Shown: piece by piece, positions 9,229-25,084 of the stretch
Numbering within the stretch: position 1 is the first letter of the stretch
Layout: every line of letters begins with the position of its first letter
IMG/VR virus record: IMGVR_UViG_3300030104_002700
Span: 1-25,141 of that record
Reading direction: 5' to 3' (one strand)
Origin: a virus
DNA: 25,141 bases
The notes under the pieces: generated by a model
Told to the model about the DNA's origin: nothing
The model's database searches: none
What the model saw: the letters and a program-made list of their open reading frames with translations, nothing else
Translations under genes and position numbers: made by a program

Positions 9229-10566
9229 TCATTGTATGTTTGTTATCTTTCCTTGTCCTTTGAAGAATGAACAACCAACTTCACCAATTGTTCGGTAAAG
9301 CGCACGATTGCCCAATGTTCCTACACCGAATGGGTTTCCGTTTGCGATACCATCCTCAAAGTATTGAGTTGGTTTCATAACGGACAACCAAAGGTGGTCT
9401 GTATCAAGGAAAAGCATATCACTTAGTTTGGATGAAGCCGCACCAGTAGCGGTCATATCTTTAACAGGAATCAATGGAATATCGTAGTATGTTGCTACTC
9501 TAAATCCAACTTCTTGACCCTTTGTTCCTCTTACACCATTAACGGTAGGGACAATCTCTTTTCTATCCATAAAGCGTTCTTGGCTTTGTAATAGGTCAGC
9601 AATTGCTTGAATAGTGTCATATCCTGTAAGAATAACCTTTGGTGAACCACCAGCAAGTCGCAAATTACGAATCATAGTATTCAAAAGAGTTAAAGTTAAA
9701 GAACGAACATTACCTGCGGTATAGTCTGTTCCAAAATCAACTTCTGCATCAAGGAAAGAAGCAGCATTAAATCTTTCACTGCCGTAAATCTTTCCTAATG
9801 CGTTTGAAGCGGAAGTAGTATCAGTAGCAAGAACTCCACCATCAATTAAAAGCAATTCTTTTCTTGATGTAATTACCTTCAAAAGAGAAGTATAGTTGTT
9901 ACCAATGTTAGGCATAGCCGAACTTTCACCATAATGTTCTAATGGCATAACAAGCATCTTGTTTTGAACCTCAGCATGGTGCTTACCCATATCTTCACGC
10001 ATTTGCGCTCTAATATCGCCAATTCCATCATCAATTTGAGCCATTTCCATAGCCAATTCGCTGAAATCGAATTGATGTGCAACAACTTTTGGACTCATGT
10101 TTAATTGAGCATAAGTTGGAGCAATTGGGCCTAATCCATCTTGAGCAGTTGAAAGTGCGGCATTTTCAGGAACACCACCAATCATATCTGCTCTTGGTGA
10201 ATCCGAACCTAATTCAGCAAGGTTTTCTGTTCCGCTTGCATCAACAGTGAATAAGTTTCCACTTCCACCAGCAGGTCGGCTTTTCAATACTCTCCAACCA
10301 CTTGAAGAATAAGGTCTTTTTGAAATCATCGAAAGTGCATTGACTTCTCGGTTTAGCATAGACCAAACCTTTTGTCCATAAACGATGTTGTATAATGCTG
10401 AAACATCGGAAACTCCACTACCGGACAAAGATGGAGAACCATCGTGTCCTGTGTGAATACCTCCGACCATACCTGCTTGCTTCAATAAAGCATTACCGGC
10501 TGGTAGATTGTTAATTCCGTATGTTTGCGCTTCTAAGTCTCTAATTGTGTTAATATATCCTGTCAT
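9229..10566 (-). CDS. Major capsid protein (HK97 fold)
   Basis: 445 residues; ATG behind GAGGTGATTTAAA. The protein has a helical N-terminal region, then a long body. Features typical of HK97-type shell proteins are an early helical and Gly-rich segment (residues 1-50), an extended E-loop-like part (SSSGWRVLKSRPAGGSG), a helical spine (DIRAQMREDMGKHHAEVQNK), a P-domain stretch (NTMIRNLRLAGGSPKVILTG, followed by a helix) and a late strand (YYDIPLIPVKDM). Place directly after the protease/scaffold gene is canonical. The N-terminal region of about 50-60 residues may be a delta-domain-like segment removed by the protease, as in HK97; no cleavage site can be assigned by eye. The identification is strong from context, moderate from sequence alone. 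Confidence 0.85.
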   Translation of the reverse strand: MTGYINTIRDLEAQTYGINNLPAGNALLKQAGMVGGIHTGHDGSPSLSGSGVSDVSALYNIVYGQKVWSMLNREVNALSMISKRPYSSSGWRVLKSRPAGGSGNLFTVDASGTENLAELGSDSPRADMIGGVPENAALSTAQDGLGPIAPTYAQLNMSPKVVAHQFDFSELAMEMAQIDDGIGDIRAQMREDMGKHHAEVQNKMLVMPLEHYGESSAMPNIGNNYTSLLKVITSRKELLLIDGGVLATDTTSASNALGKIYGSERFNAASFLDAEVDFGTDYTAGNVRSLTLTLLNTMIRNLRLAGGSPKVILTGYDTIQAIADLLQSQERFMDRKEIVPTVNGVRGTKGQEVGFRVATYYDIPLIPVKDMTATGAASSKLSDMLFLDTDHLWLSVMKPTQYFEDGIANGNPFGVGTLGNRALYRTIGEVGCSFFKGQGKITNIQ

Positions 10567-10577
10567 TTTAAATCACC

Positions 10578-11297
10578 TCAAATGTTGTTCACCATCTTAT
10601 GAATATCCGACCATTCCATGTCTGCAAGGTCTTCTATTGATGGGAGTTGTATAGTTGCTTCTTCTTGAGCCTTAATGATTGAATCTTTCTCGGCTGTCAA
10701 AGACTTTCGCAATTGAGTGAACTCTTCCTTTAGGGAAGAAATCTCACTTGCAGCGTCATATTGAGACTTTGCGAGAATATTCTCACGGTTTGCTTTTTCA
10801 TTAGCAAATCGAGCCTCAAAAGACTTTCGGAGATTATCGTAAGCAAGTGCTTCAAGTTGTTCTTCACGGAAAGCGGCATATGCTTTTTCAATGTTTGAAT
10901 TACTCAAATCAAGAGAATCAAATTCATTGTTACTAAATGCCTTAACAACAGGCATATCCGAAGAAGTCGGCTTACCATTGTTAATTACGATTCTGTCAGC
11001 AGGTTCGCCAATTTGGTTTCCTGCACCATCAAGGGTTCTTAGGTATGCTTTATCAGCATACATTTCTTTTTCATAGTCGCCTTTTTCATCCAATTTTTCA
11101 TCCAACATTTCTTCATCATCAGCCATTTCCAACATTTCTTCTTCATCAGCCATTTCTTCATCAGCCATTTCCATGCCGTCTTCTTTAGAAGCCCGTTCCA
11201 TCATTTCTTTATCATCTTCTTCCTCTTTGCGAAGCATATTAACTTCTTCCAAAAGGGTGTCCAATTCGCTCAGTGCTTTTTCTAATTTTTCACTCAT
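10578..11297 (-). CDS. Possible nested scaffolding protein (internal start in protease gene)
   Basis: An in-frame ATG at 11297 (MSEKLEKALSEL) is preceded by AGGAAGTGAAAAA, close to the ribosome sites used by the neighbours. It falls exactly at the boundary between the protease domain and the coiled-coil scaffold domain. Translation from here would give a 239-residue protease-free scaffold, as lambda Nu3 is made from within gene C. This rests on one site only. Confidence 0.45.
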   Translation of the reverse strand: MSEKLEKALSELDTLLEEVNMLRKEEEDDKEMMERASKEDGMEMADEEMADEEEMLEMADDEEMLDEKLDEKGDYEKEMYADKAYLRTLDGAGNQIGEPADRIVINNGKPTSSDMPVVKAFSNNEFDSLDLSNSNIEKAYAAFREEQLEALAYDNLRKSFEARFANEKANRENILAKSQYDAASEISSLKEEFTQLRKSLTAEKDSIIKAQEEATIQLPSIEDLADMEWSDIHKMVNNI

Positions 11298-11828
11298 TTT
11301 TTCACTTCCTATATCTTGTTTTAAAATATCGAATTTCGCTTCGGGATTTATGCCTTTTTCACATATTGTTACTTCATGGAGTTCTAACTTACTTATTTCG
11401 TTATATTCCCCTAATTCATTGTGACTTTTCTTTACTTTTTGTAATGCTTGTCCACCAATACTAAATGACCTTAATGACCCTTTGCGAATGTTTCTTCCTA
11501 CTTCTTTTGCTTTTTCAATGTCATCTCTTAGTTTAATTACTACAAAGAATCCCACATCATCTACTTCGGATTTCCATAATTTTCCTGTTTTATCTCTATA
11601 TGAATCTACGACTTCACCGACTTGAACATTTGAATGGTTTGTCATTACATTTCTAAACTTTGAATCTTCCATGAACTTCTTAACTGATTCTTTTAATGCT
11701 TTTAATGTAATCAAATCATTTTGCTTATCTACAATTTCAATGCTTGCATATCCACCAATCATTAAGTCGTCGTTGCTCTTTAGAATATTGAATCCATCAT
11801 TCCTTGTAGCCATGACGCTTATGCTCAT
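10578..11828 (-). CDS. Prohead maturation protease fused to acidic scaffold, with C-terminal tag
   Basis: 416 residues from the ATG at 11828; an in-frame TTG three codons upstream lies too near the AGGAAGG ribosome site. Residues 10-165 match the XkdF/U35-like serine protease pattern: 'GGYASIEIVDKQNDLIT', a candidate catalytic His65 in TNHSNVQVGEV, candidate Ser121/Ser123 in GSLRSFSIGG, and LHEVTICEKGINPEA. After residue 178 comes a coiled-coil (MSEKLEKALSELDTLLEEV), an acidic Met/Glu/Asp repeat region, a second helical region and the C-terminus DMEWSDIHKMVNNI. This protease-plus-scaffold build is known in other tailed viruses; the protease clears the scaffold before DNA packaging. The C-terminal peptide matches the small coiled-coil protein ending at 15055 and the N-terminal tags elsewhere. 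Confidence 0.8.
   Translation of the reverse strand: MSISVMATRNDGFNILKSNDDLMIGGYASIEIVDKQNDLITLKALKESVKKFMEDSKFRNVMTNHSNVQVGEVVDSYRDKTGKLWKSEVDDVGFFVVIKLRDDIEKAKEVGRNIRKGSLRSFSIGGQALQKVKKSHNELGEYNEISKLELHEVTICEKGINPEAKFDILKQDIGSEKMSEKLEKALSELDTLLEEVNMLRKEEEDDKEMMERASKEDGMEMADEEMADEEEMLEMADDEEMLDEKLDEKGDYEKEMYADKAYLRTLDGAGNQIGEPADRIVINNGKPTSSDMPVVKAFSNNEFDSLDLSNSNIEKAYAAFREEQLEALAYDNLRKSFEARFANEKANRENILAKSQYDAASEISSLKEEFTQLRKSLTAEKDSIIKAQEEATIQLPSIEDLADMEWSDIHKMVNNI
10591..10619 (-). repeat. C-terminal tag coding repeat, copy 1 (M-E-W-S-D-I-H-K-M-V)
   Basis: 29 bases that match 15077-15105 at 26 positions. Both encode M-[ED]-W-S-D-I-H-K-M-V near the end of different proteins. Confidence 0.85.
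11102..11170 (-). repeat. Tandem coding repeat for acidic Met/Glu/Asp stretch
   Basis: Two 27-base units (11102-11128 and 11129-11155) differ at one base. They are followed by another exact copy of the last 15 bases of the unit (11156-11170). They encode the acidic EMADEE/EMLEMADD repeats of the scaffold region. Slippage could change the length of this segment. Confidence 0.8.
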
Positions 11829-11854
11829 CTTGCTCAAACCTTCCTATTCTCTTT

Positions 11855-11875: not shown

Positions 11876-14398
11876 CTATTTGGTAGGGAGGGGCAATTCT
11901 TTATACCTGTCCTCATAAATATCCCATAATCCTGCATCTGTATCGTCATCAGCAGGAGTTTGTTTATATCCAGACCATGCTAACCACATATCTTTATTAT
12001 CTACTTTAAGTCTTCTAATGTTAAATTTAGTTTCAAACTTATTACCTTCAAGGAAATACTCATGATAACCATGTTTTTGTATTCCTAATCTAATTTTACC
12101 TTCATCAAGTATTTTTCTCTTGGATATATTGTTTGCTATCATAGCAGGAAATTTACCGGCTTTACCAAACAACTCAAATATATCATCATCTTTTTCTAAA
12201 TCAATAAGCCAATTTAAAGTCTCATCTTTAAGTTTAATAACTAAATTTAAATTATCATCATCTCTAAGGTATAATTTAAATTGCCCTGTTTGATATTCTT
12301 TTGGAGTCTTATATGATTTAAGAATATTTTCTTCTTGCATTATCTTATCGTCTTCGGAATAAAGTTTATTGGTCTTTTCATCATATGAAATACCATCTCT
12401 TTGCTTCATCCAGTCTTTAAGTTTATCTAATTTACTTTCAAGAATATCTTCATAAATATCTTTATGTTCCTTGACTAAATGATTATGAAGTTCCTTAATT
12501 GTTTTAGGCCCAGTAGTCTTCATAAACTGAAATGCTGCTACTGTTAATCGAGATTGCTTAGTTTTCATAATCTCTTCCGCTTGTTGTTTCCACATATCTA
12601 AATCAACTAAAGCATTTTTAGACATTAAGTTATCTTCTTCAAAACCATAAATAGTAAAGCCATCCATGTCTCCTTTAATTATAATAGACGCTTCTCCGTG
12701 TATATGGTCTGTAATTTTCAAACCTTTCTTTAATGCTTCTACATTATAATTCAATGATTTTTTTTCATCGTTGGATAGTATCTCAAGAGTGATTAACTTA
12801 TCGGGGTGCATGGCTTCGGGAACTTCTATGACCTTAGCGGAGTGAACAATATATCGCTCTCCTTCTTTCTTTACTTGGTCTATTTTGACCCTTACAATGC
12901 TTCCTAAGTCAGCACTAATTTTAGTGTTAAGGGCTTTACCAACAACCATATAGGTTTTACCTTCTATTTCTTGGTAATGTTTTCCTTCTCCTTCTGTTGG
13001 CCCTGCACCGAGAGTATAAGAATAATTACCATTGGAAGATTTCTTATCGAGAACAAGTAAATCTAAATCAACAAAACTCTTCCACTTAATCCATTTAGGG
13101 TTTTTCTTTGTCCCAACATAGTAAGTTGAAGTAGAATCTTTAATTACCACACCTTCTGCTGTTGGCATATCCATGATTGCTTTAGAGTATTCTTCTATAT
13201 CTTTAGTAGAATCTGCTAAACGAGTATCTTTTTTAGAAGGGAAAGTTAAGTCTTCACTTGAATGAATAGAATAATTATTAAACATTAACTGCATTCTTTG
13301 AGTTAATGTATCTTCTAATAAAGATTTCTCATTATGTCTTAGTAAATCGAACATATGTATTCTTAATCTACCGTCAGGATTTTTGTCATTAAATACATGA
13401 GAGATTGTTTCTGCTCTATTGAGGGCTTCATCTCCTTTAAACAAAAGTAAAGACCCATCTAAGATACAATCTCCAAAGTGTTTCTTCTGTAATTCCTTTA
13501 CTTGTTCTTTACACTTAGAAGTAATATCTTTACCATCAAATGAATACACTTTAACTTTCTTATCTATTTTGTGCATTTGAATGCGAAGACCGTCATACTT
13601 TTCTTGAACATAATATTCACCACTAAAGCCTTTAAGTTCATTCATGTCTTCTATATCAAATATTCTATACATAGGTTTATTTGGAACAATAAAATCAGAT
13701 TCGGCTTTTTCTTCTGTGGATTTCTTTTCTTCTGCCTTCTTAATTGGTAGTCCTTCAATATCTTCTAATTCATTCCAATCATCTTTATCATTCTTAGAAA
13801 GAAAGATTAACTCTAATATATTCATCGCTGCCTTTACTTTAGATTTAACTTTGTTTGAGTCTTTTCCATCCCCGTAATGCTCAATAATATAGAGGTCAAT
13901 ATCATCCACTTCTATGTCAAGTCCTTGAAGACCCTCTGTAATATCGTCGGGTTCGATGTCTTTAACAGCGTAAATGTCGGGAGATAGTGCTTTACTGTCT
14001 TCTCTAATGGCATAGTGAACGAATTTAACCATGTTACCCGTTGAAGATAACAATGCTTCCAAAACTTCACCTTTGAATCTTTTAGCGAAAGGGTCATCCA
14101 CTGATTCGGAAGAATAACGAAGTTTCTTTATTCCTTCAAATATCTTTTCAGCGTTTTGAGATTGAGGGTCTTTGACATCATCTGCTTCTAAATCTGAAAT
14201 CTCAATAAAGTTCTTTAACTCATTTGAAAGTTCATTACTGTTTTCATAGGCTTCTGTAATACCATCTATTGCACTACGCCACTTTGCCCCGTATTCTTTG
14301 GGGTCAGTGCGAGCCGATAGATAAGCCACTCTTACTTTCTCAAATAAGCGAACAATTTCATCCGATGTGGACTTATCTTTTTCAAGAAGATAAGCCAT
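11876..14398 (-). CDS. ATP-dependent DNA ligase-like protein with extra C-terminal domains
   Basis: 840 residues; ATG behind AGGTGAAATAA. Nucleotidyltransferase motifs are clear: I EKYDGLR (Lys267 would carry AMP, Arg272), III LDGSL (313-317), IIIa HMFDLL (348-353), IV EGVVIK (415-420) and V WIKWK (436-440), followed by an OB-like region to about 525. Motif III normally reads D-G-E; here the Glu is Ser316. Residues 1-240 are helical and only loosely like a ligase DNA-binding domain. Residues about 612-680 look like a winged helix. Residues about 705-810 (LNLVIKLKDETLNWLIDLE; IQKHGYHEYFLEG) recall the LigD 3'-phosphoesterase layout without its catalytic His and Asp. The likely role is sealing or binding DNA ends during packaging or after injection; reduced activity is possible. 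Finding it between protease and portal genes is unusual. Confidence 0.8.
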   Translation of the reverse strand: MAYLLEKDKSTSDEIVRLFEKVRVAYLSARTDPKEYGAKWRSAIDGITEAYENSNELSNELKNFIEISDLEADDVKDPQSQNAEKIFEGIKKLRYSSESVDDPFAKRFKGEVLEALLSSTGNMVKFVHYAIREDSKALSPDIYAVKDIEPDDITEGLQGLDIEVDDIDLYIIEHYGDGKDSNKVKSKVKAAMNILELIFLSKNDKDDWNELEDIEGLPIKKAEEKKSTEEKAESDFIVPNKPMYRIFDIEDMNELKGFSGEYYVQEKYDGLRIQMHKIDKKVKVYSFDGKDITSKCKEQVKELQKKHFGDCILDGSLLLFKGDEALNRAETISHVFNDKNPDGRLRIHMFDLLRHNEKSLLEDTLTQRMQLMFNNYSIHSSEDLTFPSKKDTRLADSTKDIEEYSKAIMDMPTAEGVVIKDSTSTYYVGTKKNPKWIKWKSFVDLDLLVLDKKSSNGNYSYTLGAGPTEGEGKHYQEIEGKTYMVVGKALNTKISADLGSIVRVKIDQVKKEGERYIVHSAKVIEVPEAMHPDKLITLEILSNDEKKSLNYNVEALKKGLKITDHIHGEASIIIKGDMDGFTIYGFEEDNLMSKNALVDLDMWKQQAEEIMKTKQSRLTVAAFQFMKTTGPKTIKELHNHLVKEHKDIYEDILESKLDKLKDWMKQRDGISYDEKTNKLYSEDDKIMQEENILKSYKTPKEYQTGQFKLYLRDDDNLNLVIKLKDETLNWLIDLEKDDDIFELFGKAGKFPAMIANNISKRKILDEGKIRLGIQKHGYHEYFLEGNKFETKFNIRRLKVDNKDMWLAWSGYKQTPADDDTDAGLWDIYEDRYKELPLPTK

Positions 14399-14407
14399 TT
14401 ATTTCAC

Positions 14408-15055
14408 CTATGAACTTCTACCGAAATACATGGTTAATTCTTTTAAATCATCCATTATTTCTTTCATATCGCTTTCCATTTTACCTTGTTTGCTCAAAGG
14501 AGCAGTCAAATACTCGGAAGTAATTTTCTTCATAGCGGCTTCTAATGCAGCAAAAGTTTCATTTGCCATTTGTTGCTGTTGTTCTGTAAATTCGACATCT
14601 CTATCGTCTTTCTTAAAGTCACCAAATCCACCTTTGCTTTTACCAAGCATAGTCATTTGTTTAGTTAATACCTGATAGACAGCCTCTACTTGAGTCTTAA
14701 GTTGTTTTAGTGCTTTTGTTTCTTCTTCGTTCAAAACACCCTTAGCAAGTTGTTTTTCGATTTTTCTATCTCCTTCAGTAACAAACGCTCTTGCTAAACG
14801 AATAGCCTTAATCATCTTTGCCTTATCAAAGGCTTTCTTAATTTTGCCACTTTTGAACTCTTCTCCACCGGCATTAGCATGAACCTTGTCTTGCTTAATA
14901 CCATGTTTAGATGCTTTAGCCTTTGGTCGCTTAACCTTTTCAATTGTTGGCATTTCATCTTTTGTTAATCCATCTCGTAATTGTTCTAAAGATTCTCTTG
15001 CTTTAAGAATCGTTAATTCGACTATTTTTTCTTCTCTTGTTACTTTTTCCGGCAT
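14408..15055 (-). CDS. Charged helical protein, unknown
   Basis: 215 residues; ATG behind GTAGGTGGACAATA, overlapping the stop of the preceding gene. It is almost wholly charged helix, starting MPEKVTREEKIVELTILKAR. It has a basic Gly-containing linker (about 45-75) and long helices (RKIEKQLAKGVLNEEETKAL; DMKEIMDDLKELTMYFGRSS). There are no cysteines or catalytic motifs. It lies between the tagged coiled-coil gene and the ligase gene. Head-assembly or DNA-binding roles are possible, but nothing is specific. Confidence 0.58.
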   Translation of the reverse strand: MPEKVTREEKIVELTILKARESLEQLRDGLTKDEMPTIEKVKRPKAKASKHGIKQDKVHANAGGEEFKSGKIKKAFDKAKMIKAIRLARAFVTEGDRKIEKQLAKGVLNEEETKALKQLKTQVEAVYQVLTKQMTMLGKSKGGFGDFKKDDRDVEFTEQQQQMANETFAALEAAMKKITSEYLTAPLSKQGKMESDMKEIMDDLKELTMYFGRSS

Positions 15056-15294
15056 TATTGTCCACCTACCTTTTCTACCATTTTATGAATATCAGACCAA
15101 TCCATACTTCCAACATCTCCCATTGGAGAATCGGATGAATTACCGTTATTCATATTTGGACTTGGACTTTGAGATACTACTAAACCGGACTTCATCAACA
15201 AGTTATCTTGGTGATAAACAGTCTTTTCTAAATTTTCAATCTTCTCTGTTAAAGCCTTAAGGATGGCTAATAATTCTACATTTTGTTCTGTCAC
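15055..15294 (-). CDS. Small coiled-coil protein with C-terminal WSDIHKM tag
   Basis: 79 residues from a GTG behind AAGGTGATGACAA. The GTGA overlaps the upstream stop by 3 bases. Residues 5-35 form a heptad-like coiled coil (ELLAILKALTEKIENLEKTV). Residues 40-60 are a Ser/Pro/Asn linker (SQSPSPNMNNGNSSDSPMG). The end, SMDWSDIHKMVEKVGGQ, matches the last residues of the protease/scaffold protein. The build of coiled coil, linker and terminal peptide looks like an adaptor or mini-scaffold that shares a docking peptide with the main scaffold (inference). Confidence 0.7.
   Translation of the reverse strand: MTEQNVELLAILKALTEKIENLEKTVYHQDNLLMKSGLVVSQSPSPNMNNGNSSDSPMGDVGSMDWSDIHKMVEKVGGQ
15077..15105 (-). 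repeat. C-terminal tag coding repeat, copy 2 (M-D-W-S-D-I-H-K-M-V)
   Basis: It matches 10591-10619 at 26 of 29 bases and encodes the tag at the end of the small coiled-coil protein. Confidence 0.85.
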
Positions 15295-18529: not shown

Positions 18530-20173
18530 TTAACCAACTCTTCTTTCTGTTCTTGAATCTACATTTTGATTACCTGCTTCTGCTGGCAATCCACTCATGC
18601 GCTTATCCGGCCCTACTTCGTTCCTTGCTTTATTTCTTGTGGCCGGTGGGTTTTCTTGGGGTTTAGAACCGCCACCTTCTGCAAACATTCTTGCTTGTTC
18701 ATCTAAATCTCTTTGGTCTAAATTAGAACCTGCTAATGGGTCTGCTCCTTGTTGTTCTCCACCTTCAACTGGTTGTTGTTCCGGTTGAGGTTCAGGCTTT
18801 TTAAATGTAAATTGTCCGTCTTCATCCATATCAACTTCAAACCCTAGATTTTTAATTGAAGCAGCAATATTAACTTCTATCTCTCTTTTACGAAGACCTG
18901 CAATTTCATCTTCTTCTTCGGATGGAGGAAGTTTTAATTCCCAATCAGTAATTCCAAATTGCTTTGTTAAGTAAGGGAAAACATAATTATTATAAACATT
19001 TTGAGCCATTTGAACTGCTCGATTAGTAACAAGTATTTGCATACCTTCATTATTCAATCCACCGCTGGTTGTATTATCAGCCATGAATACTTTACTTACT
19101 CCATAAAATGCTGAAATTCTATCTCTTAAATCATCTTTAACTGAAATGTAATCCATTTCTTTGAGAGAATCCATAAACTTAATCCATTCAACAGCACCTT
19201 TACCACCCTCTGCTTCAATTCCCATAACAGGAATAAAGTGAGGGTCGGCTTCCATCTTTTCTTTTACACCTCTCCAAAAGGCTCTCATTGAATCCATGTT
19301 GCGTGTTTGAACGGCCAAAAGACCTCTTGGCATTCTACTCTTAGTGTATGCTGAATTAACATAATTCTCCATAGCAATAAGAGTCATAATATGATTGTAT
19401 AGTGTAATTACAGGAGAGAAACCATAAAGGCGACTTGGGCTGTATTTACTAAAGTGTAACACTTCTCCTTCTAAGAAGTATTGGTCTTCACCATTTGCTC
19501 TATTAACGAAGTGAACAGGCTTCATATCGGAACCACAAGTTTCACACTTTGAATAGGGTTCAGTAGATAACATACTTCTATGATTTAAACAAGTAAATCC
19601 TTTGTTTCCTTTCACTCCGTTTTCATCAGCATAAATAAACATAGTCACTGGGTCGCCTCGATAAATCTCTTTAATTCGGTGCATTCTAATTTTACCATTA
19701 CCGTCTAAGAAATACTCTTTAACTAATACAATGTAAGCATCATCCATAGTATTCAAATCATCTTCTAATTCTTTCAATACATCTATAAATAGTTGTTCGG
19801 ATGGATTAACATATCCTTCTAAAAACTTTTCAGCGAATTGTAATTGCTTAACATCAGGAACTCTCAAATCTTCGGATTCACAACGAGAACATTGTTGAAC
19901 TGGTCGCTTATGTTTCTTACCGCAATTATTACAAATTGCTTCAAAAGCCTTCTCCCAAACATAACCTCTACGATAAACCTCTTGTTTTAATTGAGTAATA
20001 CAGGTTCTTACAATTACAGACTGTTGCACCATCGAATAAATGATTGGTGCTGTCATCATGTAATTATTTTGCCTTTCTTGAATACCCATGTTATATATCT
20101 GTCTATCCGCAGGTTTAGGAGTAGAACGCCTAAACAAGTTAGTAAAGGAGAATCGTCGCTTTTCTTCAGCCAT
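18530..20173 (-). CDS. Portal protein with two zinc-ribbon inserts
   Basis: 547 residues; ATG behind GGGGTGTAAGG. Portal features include the N-terminal helical region (PIIYSMVQQSVIVRTCITQL), YFLEGEVLHFSKYSPSRLYG ahead of a helix (residues about 232-251), the long spine helix (about 290-345), DRISAFYGVSKVFMADNT (about 350-370) and a disordered Gln/Pro/Glu tail (about 455-547). The portal forms the ring at the DNA-entry vertex and docks terminase. Two metal-binding inserts occur: Cys81-x2-Cys84...Cys95-x2-Cys98, and Cys195-x2-His198...Cys210-x2-Cys213. They fall in the wing region and could bind DNA, terminase or stabilise the ring. Lying after the terminase gene and before protease and capsid genes supports the call. 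Confidence 0.88.
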   Translation of the reverse strand: MAEEKRRFSFTNLFRRSTPKPADRQIYNMGIQERQNNYMMTAPIIYSMVQQSVIVRTCITQLKQEVYRRGYVWEKAFEAICNNCGKKHKRPVQQCSRCESEDLRVPDVKQLQFAEKFLEGYVNPSEQLFIDVLKELEDDLNTMDDAYIVLVKEYFLDGNGKIRMHRIKEIYRGDPVTMFIYADENGVKGNKGFTCLNHRSMLSTEPYSKCETCGSDMKPVHFVNRANGEDQYFLEGEVLHFSKYSPSRLYGFSPVITLYNHIMTLIAMENYVNSAYTKSRMPRGLLAVQTRNMDSMRAFWRGVKEKMEADPHFIPVMGIEAEGGKGAVEWIKFMDSLKEMDYISVKDDLRDRISAFYGVSKVFMADNTTSGGLNNEGMQILVTNRAVQMAQNVYNNYVFPYLTKQFGITDWELKLPPSEEEDEIAGLRKREIEVNIAASIKNLGFEVDMDEDGQFTFKKPEPQPEQQPVEGGEQQGADPLAGSNLDQRDLDEQARMFAEGGGSKPQENPPATRNKARNEVGPDKRMSGLPAEAGNQNVDSRTERRVG

Positions 20174-20337: not shown

Positions 20338-20760
20338 TTATCTCACCTCGTCGTAATCAATTAAGCCTAATTGTTTCATTTTGAGCCAAAAGTTTGTAGA
20401 TAAACTTTGAAATGCCTTTCCACCTACAAGGGGTATATTTTCCTTACCTTGTAATTCTTCTCGCATTTCACGAACATATTTTTCTCCACGACCTGCACCT
20501 TTTTCCCCTTTAATTTCAAATGCTAATATAGCCCAATAAGGATATGATTTATCTCCTTTTTTGTGTATATCTATTCTAACCTTAGCCATAGCATTCTCGT
20601 CTTGTGATTCCCATATTTGGTTTCCCTTTCTTTTAGAATCAGGTCTTGATAAAAATTCTCTAGGAAATTGTAGTAAATAAGGAGTTGAAAGACTTTGATG
20701 AGGAACAGCATGTCTATTACTAGAATCTATTAATGGGGCTTTTAATATATCAAACCACAA
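20338..20760 (-). CDS. Tagged protein MWFDILK..., unknown body
   Basis: 140 residues. The TTG at 20760 is chosen because AGGTGGT lies at normal spacing; an upstream in-frame GTG is inside that site. Starting there puts the tag W-F-D-I-L-K at residues 2-7, as in the other tagged proteins. The body has a short positively charged part (RPDSKRKGNQ), then a beta-patterned core (AKVRIDIHKKGDKSYPYWAI; LAFEIKGEKG) and a C-terminal helix (FWLKMKQLGLIDYDEVR). It overlaps the LAGLIDADG gene by 11 bases. The body is not recognised; the core might be a small nuclease-like or nucleic-acid-binding fold, but no catalytic set can be assigned. Confidence 0.65.
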   Translation of the reverse strand: MWFDILKAPLIDSSNRHAVPHQSLSTPYLLQFPREFLSRPDSKRKGNQIWESQDENAMAKVRIDIHKKGDKSYPYWAILAFEIKGEKGAGRGEKYVREMREELQGKENIPLVGGKAFQSLSTNFWLKMKQLGLIDYDEVR

Positions 20761-22108
20761 GACTACCACCTATTTGTTCCATAGAATCCATTAGTGACAT
20801 TTTACAATTATCCTTATATTTTTGAATATCGTCTAAATAGATTCCTTCTTTCAAGAAATCAAAACCTACATGGTCTTTATGATTCTCCCACTTCATAAGT
20901 TTGAATATTTCATCACAGCGACTCTTATACCAGTCTTGTTTTTTATATGATTTTTTCATTCTTATTAACTCAAGAAGTAACTCTGCATTACCTTTCTTTA
21001 ATCTAAAATGAGGCAAACACTTTGTTAATAAATCTGTAACATGGTCTTGAGAATAAAAGTTAAGTCGTTGGACAGGCCGTGTATCTTGTGGTGACTTTTG
21101 ATTTAAATGTAATTTACCAAATCCAATTGATTTGTGCATTTCTTCCATAAATGCACGACCTCTATCTCCGGTAGCAATTAAACCGACTCTTGGGTTATGG
21201 TTTCTATCCATTGTAATATATCCATCGGAGTCAATAAATGCAGCAGTATAAGCCCAAATGTTCTTTTTGATTTCATTTGGCATTTTATAATATCCACCAT
21301 TAACAACAGCGACATCTAATTTTTTAACCATTTTAGAAATCATATTTGAAGTAGTGTTCTTATGTAATACAGAAGGCATTTTATCATGAAGTTGTTTTGC
21401 TCCAATTCCGGGTTGTTTTCGTATTTCGGTTTCAATAAAAGAAAGAACTCTTTCTTTCTTTGATTTAACAAGAGACTGGTCGGAAATGTTTTTAATTTCT
21501 GCTCTAAAATCTTTCTTTGCTAAACGGCAAGTCTTTTCAAGAGAAGAGTAATCTTTACCATAAACCATATCTGTCTTCTTTAAGTCATGTTCCCAAAACT
21601 TACACAAAGCATCTACAACTTTTCTTCTTGACTTAACATCTCCCATTTTATTTAGTTTCATCAAATCCTTTTCGTTAAATCTCATTTTGAGTAATGGTTC
21701 TTTGTATGGACTTAACCAGTAAATAGAATCAATACACTTTGAGATATGTTCGGAGTAACCATCAATGACTGTATCAATTGCTTTAGCCATTCTTACTCTG
21801 TCTTCTCCCTTTAGTTTTCTTCTTGCTTTACGCATCTTTCTTACTAAATCTGGAATATTTTCTCCATCAACAACATACTCATTAGGAAATGAAGAAAGTT
21901 GTTTTCTTGCTTCGGTAGCGTTAATATTTAAGTTCTTAGATAGAGTAGTAACTGCTTCGTAATCCGACATGACATAATCAGTAATACCCTTATTTAGTTC
22001 AATACCTACATCACTAAGGGCTTGAACAACAGGTTTCTTTTCTTCCTGTAACTCTTCTAATTCTTCAATTTCATCCTTTGAGTCAATTAAATCTTGTTCT
22101 GTAACCAT
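20750..22108 (-). CDS. LAGLIDADG-domain protein adjacent to terminase
   Basis: 452 residues, with the ATG at 22108 at best spacing from GAGGTGG. Residues 1-215 are helical and charged with no recognised domain. Residues about 220-278 look like a winged helix (FIETEIRKQPGIGAKQLHDK ... GGYYKMP). A single LAGLIDADG motif, YTAAFIDSDGY (about 287-297, acidic residues Asp293 and Asp295), begins a C-terminal domain of about 150 residues. A single motif implies a homodimer if it is an endonuclease. It follows the terminase large subunit with a 10-base gap. No intein splice residues are seen, so this is not an intein. It may be a homing endonuclease, or it may have been recruited as the DNA-recognition (small-terminase-like) partner; the N-terminal extension favours a recruited role. 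Confidence 0.7.
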   Translation of the reverse strand: MVTEQDLIDSKDEIEELEELQEEKKPVVQALSDVGIELNKGITDYVMSDYEAVTTLSKNLNINATEARKQLSSFPNEYVVDGENIPDLVRKMRKARRKLKGEDRVRMAKAIDTVIDGYSEHISKCIDSIYWLSPYKEPLLKMRFNEKDLMKLNKMGDVKSRRKVVDALCKFWEHDLKKTDMVYGKDYSSLEKTCRLAKKDFRAEIKNISDQSLVKSKKERVLSFIETEIRKQPGIGAKQLHDKMPSVLHKNTTSNMISKMVKKLDVAVVNGGYYKMPNEIKKNIWAYTAAFIDSDGYITMDRNHNPRVGLIATGDRGRAFMEEMHKSIGFGKLHLNQKSPQDTRPVQRLNFYSQDHVTDLLTKCLPHFRLKKGNAELLLELIRMKKSYKKQDWYKSRCDEIFKLMKWENHKDHVGFDFLKEGIYLDDIQKYKDNCKMSLMDSMEQIGGSLVV

Positions 22109-22118
22109 CATAACCACC

Positions 22119-23552
22119 TCAAAAGTTCACACCTATGACTCCGTTACTATGCCGCTTATACTTGTTGGTAGTGGGCGGCTCAAACAATCCTAAATCGTCT
22201 AAGAGTATGAATGTTTCACTCATTGTATGTGTTGCGGCGTTTGCTAATGCAAGGCTCATTACCATGTCGTCATGCGCCCCAATTCCTTCAAACTTCCCCT
22301 TTTCAGTAATAGCAAACATTGATAATTCTTCAAGTAGAGTCATTGAAACTCTTCGGCTTTCTTCATTACCATAAGGTAAATTAATCTTTTGATTTTCAAA
22401 ATTCATTTGAAGGCTTAAGATAATCTCTTCCTTCTTCTTTCGAGTAGTATTAAAGTCATGAACATTTAAGTCGCTTACATTCCTTAATTCTTGAGTAAAA
22501 GATTTAGCGAATGTATTTGTTTCAAATAACACAACTTCAGGATGAAACATCTTTCCAATTAACCTAACCTTTTCTATGTTTTCTCTAAACTCTACATTCT
22601 TAGAACGGTCAATAAATACAATTGTTTTATTGTCGTGTTCATCTACTTCTAATACAGTAATAACATTGTAGTCACCATCAGTAGAAATAGCAGGGTCTAC
22701 TCCAACATAATACTTAAATCCTTCACGACGATGTGGCTTAAGAATATGTTCTTTACTCTTTGCTTTTTCTAAATACTCAGGATTAAACAAAGAAGTTCCA
22801 GTAGAGATAGGAACGCACAAGTATTCTCTTGTGAACATTAAAGAACCAACTTCAGCCTTTCTTGCCATTAGTGCATCGTAATCCCATCTCTCCGGCCATA
22901 ATGGTTCATTGAGAGCATTGAAACAAGGATATGTTCGGACAGTATAAGCAGGATTTTCCTCAAGTTGCTGGTAAATATCTGTATAACTGAAAGGCGTTCC
23001 AATTACTCTCAATGAAGCGGTGTGGTGAAGTGTTGGTATCATGTCACCATAAAACCAATCTGTAACCTTTTGAATACCAGTCATACTGAACTCTTTCAAA
23101 GGGTCGTCAATAATAATCTCTTGAGGGTGAAGTCCACGAATCTGTGAACCAACGGAACGCTCTAAGATTTGGTTTCCGTTTGTTAATGTAATATTACCAA
23201 TAGCCCAACCTCTTGCAGGTTTAAATTGTTTAAGCATTGGGTGAGTGAACATCTTATCAATGTCTCTCATGTGAACCATTGTCTGTTTTTGGTTCGATGA
23301 AATGTAAAGCATTTGATATGGAGGTTCTTGAAATATTAAATTCCAAACAACCCAACTGTGCATAAATACTGATTTTCCGTGGTCTCTTGAACAAACAATA
23401 ACAGTTCTTTGAGTATCATTCATTAATTCAAGCCACTCTTGTTGATAATTAGGAAACATAAAACCTAAAACATTTTGAAAAAAGTAAGGAAAAGAGTTTC
23501 GAGATAACTCCATATCCATTTGATGTTCAAAGTTAAAGGCTTCTATTTCCAT
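22119..23552 (-). CDS. terL: Terminase large subunit
   Basis: 477 residues; ATG behind GGGAATGATTTT. The ATPase half has Walker A CSRDHGKSV (Lys60, Ser61), Walker B EIIIDD (145-150) and the coupling motif GTPFS (185-189). The nuclease half is RNase H-like, with Asp286 in GVDPAISTDGDYN, Glu344 in FETNTF and the Asp428-Asp429 pair in GAHDDMVMSLALA. This enzyme pumps DNA through the portal and cuts concatemers. The length is normal and the gene is uninterrupted. It stands near the start of the structural genes, and the LAGLIDADG gene is immediately behind it. Confidence 0.93.
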   Translation of the reverse strand: MEIEAFNFEHQMDMELSRNSFPYFFQNVLGFMFPNYQQEWLELMNDTQRTVIVCSRDHGKSVFMHSWVVWNLIFQEPPYQMLYISSNQKQTMVHMRDIDKMFTHPMLKQFKPARGWAIGNITLTNGNQILERSVGSQIRGLHPQEIIIDDPLKEFSMTGIQKVTDWFYGDMIPTLHHTASLRVIGTPFSYTDIYQQLEENPAYTVRTYPCFNALNEPLWPERWDYDALMARKAEVGSLMFTREYLCVPISTGTSLFNPEYLEKAKSKEHILKPHRREGFKYYVGVDPAISTDGDYNVITVLEVDEHDNKTIVFIDRSKNVEFRENIEKVRLIGKMFHPEVVLFETNTFAKSFTQELRNVSDLNVHDFNTTRKKKEEIILSLQMNFENQKINLPYGNEESRRVSMTLLEELSMFAITEKGKFEGIGAHDDMVMSLALANAATHTMSETFILLDDLGLFEPPTTNKYKRHSNGVIGVNF

Positions 23553-23556
23553 AAAA

Positions 23557-23853
23557 TCATTCCCAAAGGTAGGGTTCTTCTAATATTTGAGCATAGGCTT
23601 GTCTGCCTAATTGTTTTTTTGCTTCTGCTTCACTTATACCGCTTGGTAATTCACCAAGTTCTTCACGAAGTTGTAATACTCGCTCTCTAAATGCTTTCCA
23701 AAATGCAGAATTTTTACTATTTTTAAGTTTTTGTTGTTTTTCTTTTGTTGCTCCTAAACCACCTGCATATTCGGAAAAATTGTAAGGGTCGCTTCTACCG
23801 ACACCCTTTCCGTAGTTTCTAGATTTTCTTTTTATTATATCAAACCATTTCAT
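23557..23853 (-). CDS. Tagged small helical protein MKWFDIIK...
   Basis: 98 residues; ATG behind GGTGATATT. It starts MKWFDIIKRKSRNYGKGVGR, the tag being identical to that of the gene ending at 1683. The body is mainly helical (ENFR-type charged helix FWKAFRERVLQLREELGELP) and ends with an aromatic LEEPYLWE. The Gly/Arg-rich linker after the tag (SRNYGKGVGRSDP) suggests the tag hangs off the folded body. It precedes the terminase gene by 4 bases, so a small-terminase role is possible by position, but no helix-turn-helix is obvious. Confidence 0.65.
   Translation of the reverse strand: MKWFDIIKRKSRNYGKGVGRSDPYNFSEYAGGLGATKEKQQKLKNSKNSAFWKAFRERVLQLREELGELPSGISEAEAKKQLGRQAYAQILEEPYLWE
23829..23853 (-). 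repeat. 25-base copy 2 encoding MKWFDIIK tag
   Basis: Identical to 2177-2201; it encodes the start of the small helical protein before the terminase gene. Confidence 0.9.
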
Positions 23854-23857
23854 AATA

Positions 23858-24289
23858 TCACCATTTTACTTTATTTGCCCAATAAGCGGCACTTGTCTTT
23901 CCTCTCTTAATATTCTTAGAATGTCGGCTCTTAAATGATTTGCGCTTGGCTTTCATTCTTTTACTTTCACCTTTTTTTGGTTTTCCGGCTACACTTGCGC
24001 CTTGCTCACCAAATCGAATAGTCTTTACTTTCTTGCCATCACGAACAACAACTACATGAGATTTCTTAGGGTGCTTTGGTGTTCTCTTTGGCTTACTAAA
24101 ACCTGAAACTCCGGCTCTCTTTAATGCAGGGTGTTTCTTTCTAAGTATTTTAAAGTCCTCTGCATCAATCTTATTATTCTTATTCTTATCTAATTTCTTT
24201 TGATTACCAACAAGAATTTTTTCACTTTCTTCTTCTTCCATCTTTTCAGTTCCACAATGGCCCTTTAAAACTTTTTTCCATTTACTCAT
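23858..24289 (-). CDS. Basic EF-hand-containing tagged protein
   Basis: 143 residues from the ATG at 24289 (AGGTGAAAAAT upstream; an earlier in-frame GTG is inside that site). It begins MSKWKKVLKGHCG, a tag variant. Residues about 34-45 (DKNKNNKIDAED) fit a calcium-binding EF-hand loop: acidic or amide side chains at positions 1, 3, 5, 9 and 12 and Ile at 8. The rest is strongly basic (GKPKKGESKRMKAKRKSFKS) and ends KTSAAYWANKVKW. The last 60 residues resemble small basic proteins seen in marine tailed phages ('...V-F-G...R-R-K-S-F-x-A-R-H...Y-W'), recalled rather than searched. DNA condensation inside the head is a possible role. Confidence 0.65.
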   Translation of the reverse strand: MSKWKKVLKGHCGTEKMEEEESEKILVGNQKKLDKNKNNKIDAEDFKILRKKHPALKRAGVSGFSKPKRTPKHPKKSHVVVVRDGKKVKTIRFGEQGASVAGKPKKGESKRMKAKRKSFKSRHSKNIKRGKTSAAYWANKVKW

Positions 24290-24857
24290 ATTTTTCACCT
24301 ATTAAATAACCTAATTGTTTTCCTGCTTTAATATCGCTTGGATAATGACTTCCCATCTGTATTCTTGATAATGATATTTGGTCTGCCATTTCTTTGAGTT
24401 CTTTCTTTTTATCTGGATATTTAGTTGATAATACTTTTTCTAAAGCATGAGCCAACATAGCATGTCCACTGGGAAAAGAAGGAGTATCATCAGTAGTAGT
24501 TTTAGGATTTTTAATTTTATCACTTACCTCATATGGTCTTTTTCTTTTATGCTTCATCTTTTCTCTCATAGCAATAATATTTACATCATCCATTAAATTA
24601 TTGAATTGTTTGTCGGAAGCCCCTACAATCTTAGTCATTTCAATACTTGGTTTCAAATCTGCATTTTTCATATTTTTAGGTGTTATTTTTTTCTTTTGCA
24701 TAATAGATAAAACTTCTTTAATTTCTGTTTCTTCTTTTGGATAAGTCATCTTAGGAACAGCAATATCTAATTTAGGTTTTTTTTCTAATAGCAATTTATT
24801 TTTATCTGATAGTCTATTAGTCCATGCTGATTCTTTTAGTATATTAAACCAAGTCAT
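24282..24857 (-). CDS. Soluble PAP2-type acid phosphatase with N-terminal tag
   Basis: 191 residues. The PAP2/vanadium-haloperoxidase signature is complete: Lys100-x6-Arg107-Pro108 (KMKHKRKRP), PSGH at 129-132 and Ser164-Arg165-x5-His171-x3-Asp175 (SRIQMGSHYPSD). His132 and His171 are the expected acid and nucleophile. There is no signal peptide or transmembrane helix, unlike lipid phosphatases of this family; it starts with the tag MTWFNILKES. The start overlaps the previous stop as ATGA, indicating coupling. A role on soluble phosphate esters (nucleotides, polyphosphate, cell-wall or lipid precursors) is open; the tag suggests it may be carried in the virion (inference). Confidence 0.82.
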   Translation of the reverse strand: MTWFNILKESAWTNRLSDKNKLLLEKKPKLDIAVPKMTYPKEETEIKEVLSIMQKKKITPKNMKNADLKPSIEMTKIVGASDKQFNNLMDDVNIIAMREKMKHKRKRPYEVSDKIKNPKTTTDDTPSFPSGHAMLAHALEKVLSTKYPDKKKELKEMADQISLSRIQMGSHYPSDIKAGKQLGYLIGEKYE

Positions 24858-25084
24858 GCGGTAAATGGCCCCCTTCTTTTACTACTTGGTTTGTGAGTGT
24901 AAATGTCTCCATCCTTGTGCATAAAGATTTTACCTTCATTTTCTAATTTAGATAGTGCTGCTTTAATTTCAGATTCTTCTCCAAATTGTTTTAGATTCTT
25001 CATACCTAAAGCACCGCCTTCTTTTTTAATTTCAGCAAGAATCTTTCCTTCAATGTCCATTTTTAATATATCTTCCCAACTCAT
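24854..25084 (-). CDS. Tagged winged-helix-like protein
   Basis: 76 residues; ATG behind GAGGATGAGAAC. It starts MSWEDILKMDIEGK, a tag variant that matches the C-terminal form M-[ED]-W-S-D-I-H-K-M. The body, ILAEIKKEGGALGMKNLKQF ... IKAALSKLENEGKIFMHKDG, has the helix-helix-helix-wing pattern of winged helix-turn-helix proteins, ending with a basic PSSKRRG. It may bind DNA. It is coupled to the PAP2 gene by an ATGA overlap. Other small helical domains are possible. Confidence 0.65.
   Translation of the reverse strand: MSWEDILKMDIEGKILAEIKKEGGALGMKNLKQFGEESEIKAALSKLENEGKIFMHKDGDIYTHKPSSKRRGPFTA

Follow-up and report, generated by a model that had tools for sequence, protein, structure and literature searches.

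A tagged soluble PAP2 phosphatase as probable head cargo of a magrovirus-like tailed archaeal virus

What does a soluble phosphatase do among the virion genes of a tailed virus, and why does it begin with a short peptide that also opens tens of unrelated viral proteins? Both questions are raised by a gene in the 25,141-base IMG/VR virus record IMGVR_UViG_3300030104_002700, which was analysed over its whole length and is referred to below as the window. The gene encodes a PAP2-family protein starting with the peptide MTWFNILK, hereafter the tag. We consider it probable that this protein is a soluble phosphomonoesterase carried as head cargo by a magrovirus-like tailed archaeal virus, and that the tag acts as a capsid-targeting sequence (CTS) imitating the C-terminus of the scaffold. 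As to the virus itself, matches of the portal, terminase, S78 protease and major capsid protein (MCP), together with the genome size and a conserved DNA ligase, suggest a magrovirus of Poseidoniales, a group for which genomes have been described (PMC10160649, PMC12999244). The elements of the phosphatase gene are as follows.

24285..24857, minus strand: tagged soluble PAP2 phosphatase, 191 amino acids (PF01569, AlphaFold2 (AF2) model, solved-structure matches)
24834..24857, minus strand: N-terminal tag MTWFNILK of the phosphatase (tag statistics; outside the matched fold)
24534..24560, minus strand: PAP2 motif 1, KX6RP, residues 100-108 (key residues invariant in 25 aligned sequences)
24462..24473, minus strand: PAP2 motif 2, PSGH, residues 129-132 (invariant in 25 aligned sequences)
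24333..24368, minus strand: PAP2 motif 3, SRX5HX3D, residues 164-175 (S164, R165, H171 and D175 invariant in 25 sequences)

The open reading frame (ORF) runs on the minus strand from an ATG start at 24857 down to 24285, with the stop codon at 24284-24282. It matches the Pfam PAP2 family (PF01569, E=7.2e-10, above the family cutoff), and the three catalytic motifs, spaced KX6RP-20-PSGH-31-SRX5HX3D, together with profile and fold similarity obtained with Pfam, Foldseek and VIA, place the protein in the PAP2 superfamily. It contains no cysteine, and a simple hydropathy test, as distinct from a signal-peptide predictor, finds neither a signal nor a membrane segment nor any other hydrophobic stretch (Kyte-Doolittle mean over 19 residues at most 0.36; grand average of hydropathy -0.81). 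The initial annotation had described a soluble PAP2 protein with all three motifs intact and with the tag at its start; this description is borne out by the invariant key residues, by the lack of a hydrophobic segment and by MTWFNILK forming the first eight residues.

The AF2 model of the protein is confident (predicted local distance difference test (pLDDT) 85, predicted template modelling score 0.84). A profile built from 25 relatives ranks class A acid phosphatases at the top (7f17, 6.7e-12; PhoN, 3e-10) with lipid phosphatases behind, and VIA comparison of the model gives Z scores of 17.6 and 17.4 for the class A acid phosphatases 1eoi and 2a96 over ~165 residues, 16.4 for LpxE and 15.5 for a PgpB-type enzyme, with haloperoxidases below LpxE. 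Because the structural gap is only ~1 Z unit, the fold gives just a modest preference for soluble class A acid-phosphatase relatives over lipid phosphatases, and it is mainly from the sequence comparison that the protein can be called closer to acid phosphatases than to LpxE. The curated PhoC model NF045654 scores the protein at 27.3 bits against a cutoff of 430, and by hydropathy alone the tag replaces the hydrophobic N-terminus through which class A enzymes are exported. We therefore class it as a soluble PAP2 protein, outside the class A acid phosphatases. No close cellular relative turned up among GTDB genome contigs, which were scanned with patterns that reach close relatives only, and tblastn against phage records returned distant PAP2 hits only. 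By analogy with class A acid phosphatases, nucleotides or other soluble phosphomonoesters are a tentative suggestion for the substrate, and lipid or polyprenyl phosphates are a possible alternative; the initial annotation had also named cell-surface phosphates and phosphate signals of host defence as conceivable targets.

The tag itself lies outside the matched fold, since residues 1-10 have a mean pLDDT of 49 and alignments to class A acid phosphatases mostly begin past residue 20. Tag statistics were gathered over the window and eight relatives of 91-96 kb, scoring each ORF for the class W-x-x-[IV]-[LIM]-K within its first 20 residues and taking the expectation from shuffled N-termini. This class is found in 121 proteins against 0.96 expected, and an origin by chance was rejected on these shuffles. 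The density is 5.6e-3 per position at N-termini and 1.4e-4 in protein interiors, a 41-fold difference, and all but three of the tagged proteins (118/121) are encoded on the late strand, which carries the virion genes. A looser definition of the tag yields 133 ORFs that fall into 70 sequence clusters, among which no similarity was detected beyond the tag. When representatives of 69 clusters are aligned, W3 is the sole invariant residue, K8 is at least 90% conserved, and information falls to near background directly past K8; the consensus is M-x-W-x-D-I-L-K, with W at position 3 in 52 of the 70. Pfam and PHROG scans of the 69 tagged representatives name few families (PAP2, GNAT, DUF6321, and weak EF-hand and metallopeptidase-like matches). 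The tag is thus a short N-terminal peptide common to otherwise unrelated proteins, as is characteristic of capsid targeting. Two genomes (G003 and G005; loci L039/L040 and L065) contain tandem tagged paralogues of the form M.W.DILK..ITQSRVKE, 14 members of one cluster, one of which has a weak SH2_2 Pfam match only (E 0.0018).

A counterpart of the tag is found at the opposite end of the prohead protease and of a scaffold-like protein, which are listed here with the capsid protein to which the tag is predicted to bind.

9229..10566, minus strand: major capsid protein, predicted tag receptor (phrog_24667, E=2.9e-21)
10578..11837, minus strand: prohead serine protease (S78) with a long C-terminal scaffold-like half (PF04586, E=4.8e-10)
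10590..10619, minus strand: C-terminal motif copy in the protease, MEWSDIHKMV (alignment; at 81/96 distinct protease ORF ends)
15055..15294, minus strand: scaffold-like protein of 79 amino acids (AF2 model, alignment)
15076..15105, minus strand: C-terminal motif copy in the 79-amino-acid protein, MDWSDIHKMV (at 77/80 distinct C-termini)

The two copies follow the pattern M[DE]W[SNAK][DE]IHKMV. In the protease, the motif terminates a C-terminal half that is long, acidic, of low complexity and helical. The gene for the 79-amino-acid protein lies three genes upstream, and the AF2 model of its product, of moderate confidence, consists of a helix at residues 3-35, a disordered linker and a terminal helix at 66-77 that bears the motif. 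Across a protease alignment spanning two distant lineages, only M407, W409 and H413 are invariant near the C-terminus, and M-x-W is kept even in the distant lineage (MSWNEVHE, MDWSDLDS). Fifteen protease ORFs do not show M-x-W: one ends in L-D-W instead, and 14 appear to be cut off within the protein, a truncation judged without a one-by-one check. On motif counts, cargo tag and scaffold ends have in common M at -2, W at 0, an acidic residue or N at +2, I at +3 and K at +5. The methionine is a true part of the motif, because it is also conserved at C-termini, where it does not serve to start translation.

These observations suggest a route by which the phosphatase would reach the host. The protease-scaffold and the 79-amino-acid protein would hold the major capsid protein through their M-[DE]-W-x-[DE]-I-H-K-M-V C-terminus; during prohead assembly, tagged proteins would use the same site on the capsid protein or co-assemble with the scaffold, and so would be enclosed in the head alongside the protease. 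They would perhaps be freed by cleavage and then ejected with the DNA into the host, where, at an early stage of infection, the phosphatase would dephosphorylate small molecules. Delivery with the particle had been proposed in the initial annotation; it gains strong indirect support from the occurrence of the motif at the C-termini of the protease-scaffold and of the 79-amino-acid protein, while delivery itself is a step that we infer. Several points weigh against this route. Position +4 is L in the N-terminal tag and H in the C-terminal motif, and the C-terminal copies are extended by M-V. Behind the tag, no site for the prohead protease was identified, no cleavage-site analysis having been made. 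Finally, among the head proteins examined in HVTV-1, a cultured relative by published MCP phylogeny, the protease, the MCP and their neighbours are without the motif. As a separate observation, three genes of the HVTV-1 head cluster (113, 115 and 116; L068 11910-20698) share a stretch like VY[VI].SP.EAPE...GG.YYY at differing positions, possibly another cargo or docking domain.

The tag can be detached from its cargo, and the cargo can be exchanged. Homologues of the basic protein at 23858-24289 occur in 43 phage records and those of another tagged protein in 61, in neither case covering 80% of the query; the bacterial-phage homologues that were read (four of the basic protein, three of the other) start without W-x-x-I-x-K, the phages being marine in the case of the basic proteins. 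Among PAP2 relatives with a complete N-terminus, all are tagged except that of locus L023, in which SKSWKYILK stands directly past the PAP2 domain, ahead of a second domain. Proteins of a divergent lineage (L017-L022, L024) carry a basic C-terminal extension behind the PAP2 domain, and in the members read (L019, L021, L024) this extension is introduced by SKSWE[DN]ILQ. One copy of the tag is thus kept even when its place changes.

The phosphatase is an accessory component, present at 4/26 portal loci with at least 9.5 kb upstream; this prevalence is a rough figure only, since it derives from the best 80 of 444 portal loci, is skewed to the window's clade, and sees portal loci only, with any PAP2 gene located away from them escaping the count. 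From one relative to the next, the tagged genes in the slot upstream of the portal change, even where portals are up to 97% identical. Such variation of the cargo set among relatives, with genes co-located and co-oriented with head genes, is again characteristic of capsid targeting, and the phosphatase would then be one interchangeable injected cargo, present in a minority of loci. In a cyanophage and a pelagiphage (L230, L231), the gene immediately preceding that of the capsid encodes an untagged homologue of DUF6321-type cargo, which suggests that this cargo has a head-related role beyond archaeal viruses.

Within the window, the PAP2 gene stands among virion genes, with the terminase large subunit (TerL), portal, protease and MCP all on the same strand, and other tagged ORFs lie on either side of it.

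22119..23552, minus strand: terminase large subunit (phrog_38, E=9.5e-56)
18530..20173, minus strand: portal protein (phrog_18178, E=1.8e-66)
24854..25084, minus strand: tagged (MSWEDILK) small protein with a weak winged-helix-like match (PAP2-adjacent homologues in relatives)
23858..24289, minus strand: tagged (MSKWKKVLK) basic protein with a weak EF-hand-like stretch and a phrog_7595 domain
23557..23853, minus strand: tagged (MKWFDIIK) protein of 98 amino acids, no assigned function
20338..20769, minus strand: possible tagged (MVVLWFDILK) protein of 143 amino acids
1683..2201, minus strand: tagged (MKWFDIIK) protein of 172 amino acids with a second, internal SKWKKILK

The stop of the small MSWEDILK protein overlaps the PAP2 start by 4 bases, and the start of the basic MSKWKKVLK protein overlaps the PAP2 stop. 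Some tagged cargo is modular, an EF-hand-like stretch being joined behind one tag to a winged-helix-like domain or to a basic phrog_7595 domain (L083 6941-7342; window 23858-24289).

This gene order bears on the first of the other readings, in which the gene is an ordinary late auxiliary metabolic gene (AMG) encoding a cytoplasmic PhoN-type acid phosphatase for phosphate or riboflavin metabolism, and the tag serves some other purpose. PhoN/PhoC enzymes are indeed the closest solved relatives, and a class A acid phosphatase (PhoN) is among the listed magrovirus AMGs (PMC10160649). We nevertheless find this reading unlikely, as the gene sits among late virion genes within a cluster of tagged ORFs and the match of the tag to scaffold C-termini would be left unexplained. 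The window's PAP2 gene is probably what was listed there as PhoN, and our analysis suggests that it is better read as packaged cargo than as a metabolic gene.

It is also conceivable, if improbable, that the tag docks the protein to the portal, the tail, the host membrane or a replication factory, the phosphatase then acting on lipid or envelope in the cell or at its surface. The peptide is short and amphipathic and contains Trp, and the lipid phosphatase LpxE and a PgpB-type enzyme are among the structural relatives given above; but the protein has no membrane segment, and the presence of the motif, in nearly all relatives, at the end of both the protease-scaffold and the scaffold-like protein points to the capsid interior. 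That the common N-terminus is instead a DNA-level element (promoter, ribosome site or recombination scar) or a recent domain duplication, as its place at gene starts and the tandem paralogues of some genomes might suggest, is scarcely credible and already largely refuted, because synonymous codons are used for its I, L and K at close to background frequencies, the motif recurs at C-termini, and nothing but the tag relates the 70 clusters to one another.

Other features of these genomes stand apart from the tag. In the window (11876-14398, minus strand) and in all eight near-complete relatives, an ATP-dependent DNA ligase of 840 amino acids is encoded with scaffold-type genes on one side and the protease on the other; it bears no tag at either end. 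A second, different ligase (~510 amino acids) is encoded on the opposite strand in six of the eight. Between terminase and portal, an ORF of 455 amino acids (window 20750-22117, minus strand) has an HNH/homing-type match (phrog_5046, E 2.8e-6) and is likely a mobile insertion. The source contig of L119/L204 has 184,733 bases, about twice the length of its relatives, and is possibly a concatemer or a joined assembly.

Returning to the reading of the phosphatase as head cargo, we lean, with less assurance, towards a wider proposal: that tens of unrelated magrovirus proteins imitate at their own N-terminus the capsid-binding C-terminus of the scaffold, a cargo-loading code that would fill the head with an exchangeable injected arsenal including the phosphatase, a GNAT acetyltransferase and DNA-binding-like basic proteins. 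Searches of an open-access library found no report of a CTS in an archaeal virus, and to our knowledge the code would be the first described in archaeal viruses. Almost all that is known of magroviruses, whose hosts are abundant ocean archaea (Poseidoniales), comes from metagenomes, and a readable packaging tag would list from sequence the proteins that each virus injects, an otherwise invisible early-infection arsenal made up mostly of uncharacterised families. It also bears on how HK97-fold capsids pick their cargo, and on whether cargo borrows the binding site of the scaffold. As a rare tagged protein with a recognisable catalytic fold, the phosphatase is a good first candidate for assay.

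Compared with known systems, the viral protein resembles the class A acid phosphatases PhoN/PhoC in fold and motif spacing (VIA Z 16-17.6 over ~165 residues) but shares at most 21% identity with them, is smaller, and has the viral N-terminal tag and neither signal peptide nor cysteine. The cargo-loading peptide of encapsulins is likewise short and terminal and brings diverse enzymes into an HK97-fold shell, but it is usually C-terminal and operates in a cellular compartment without DNA or scaffold. The herpesvirus capsid protein also has the HK97 fold, and herpesvirus cargo proteins are not known to carry the scaffold C-terminal motif, whereas here many other proteins carry it. The resemblance lies in the pairing of a protease-scaffold fusion with a separate scaffold (UL26/UL26.5), which bind the capsid protein through a common C-terminal motif (PMC12474303). 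In phage P1, the N-terminal stretch of DarB directs a large cargo into the head for delivery (PMC9024508); the P1 Dar proteins have no common consensus, and the magrovirus-like tag has a strong one. The closest likeness is to the CTS of the T4 internal proteins (IPI-III), a short N-terminal peptide shared by diverse, swappable, often basic small head proteins that are encoded with the prohead protease and have nothing else conserved (PMC3012670, PMC9026906). The tag differs from it in sequence, in the archaeal host, and in being also the C-terminus of a protease-scaffold and of a scaffold-like protein; the tagged phosphatase would work like T4 CTS cargo, without our claiming membership of that class. 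If true, the code would form a bridge within the HK97 lineage between the T4 CTS, herpesvirus scaffold ends and encapsulin cargo peptides.
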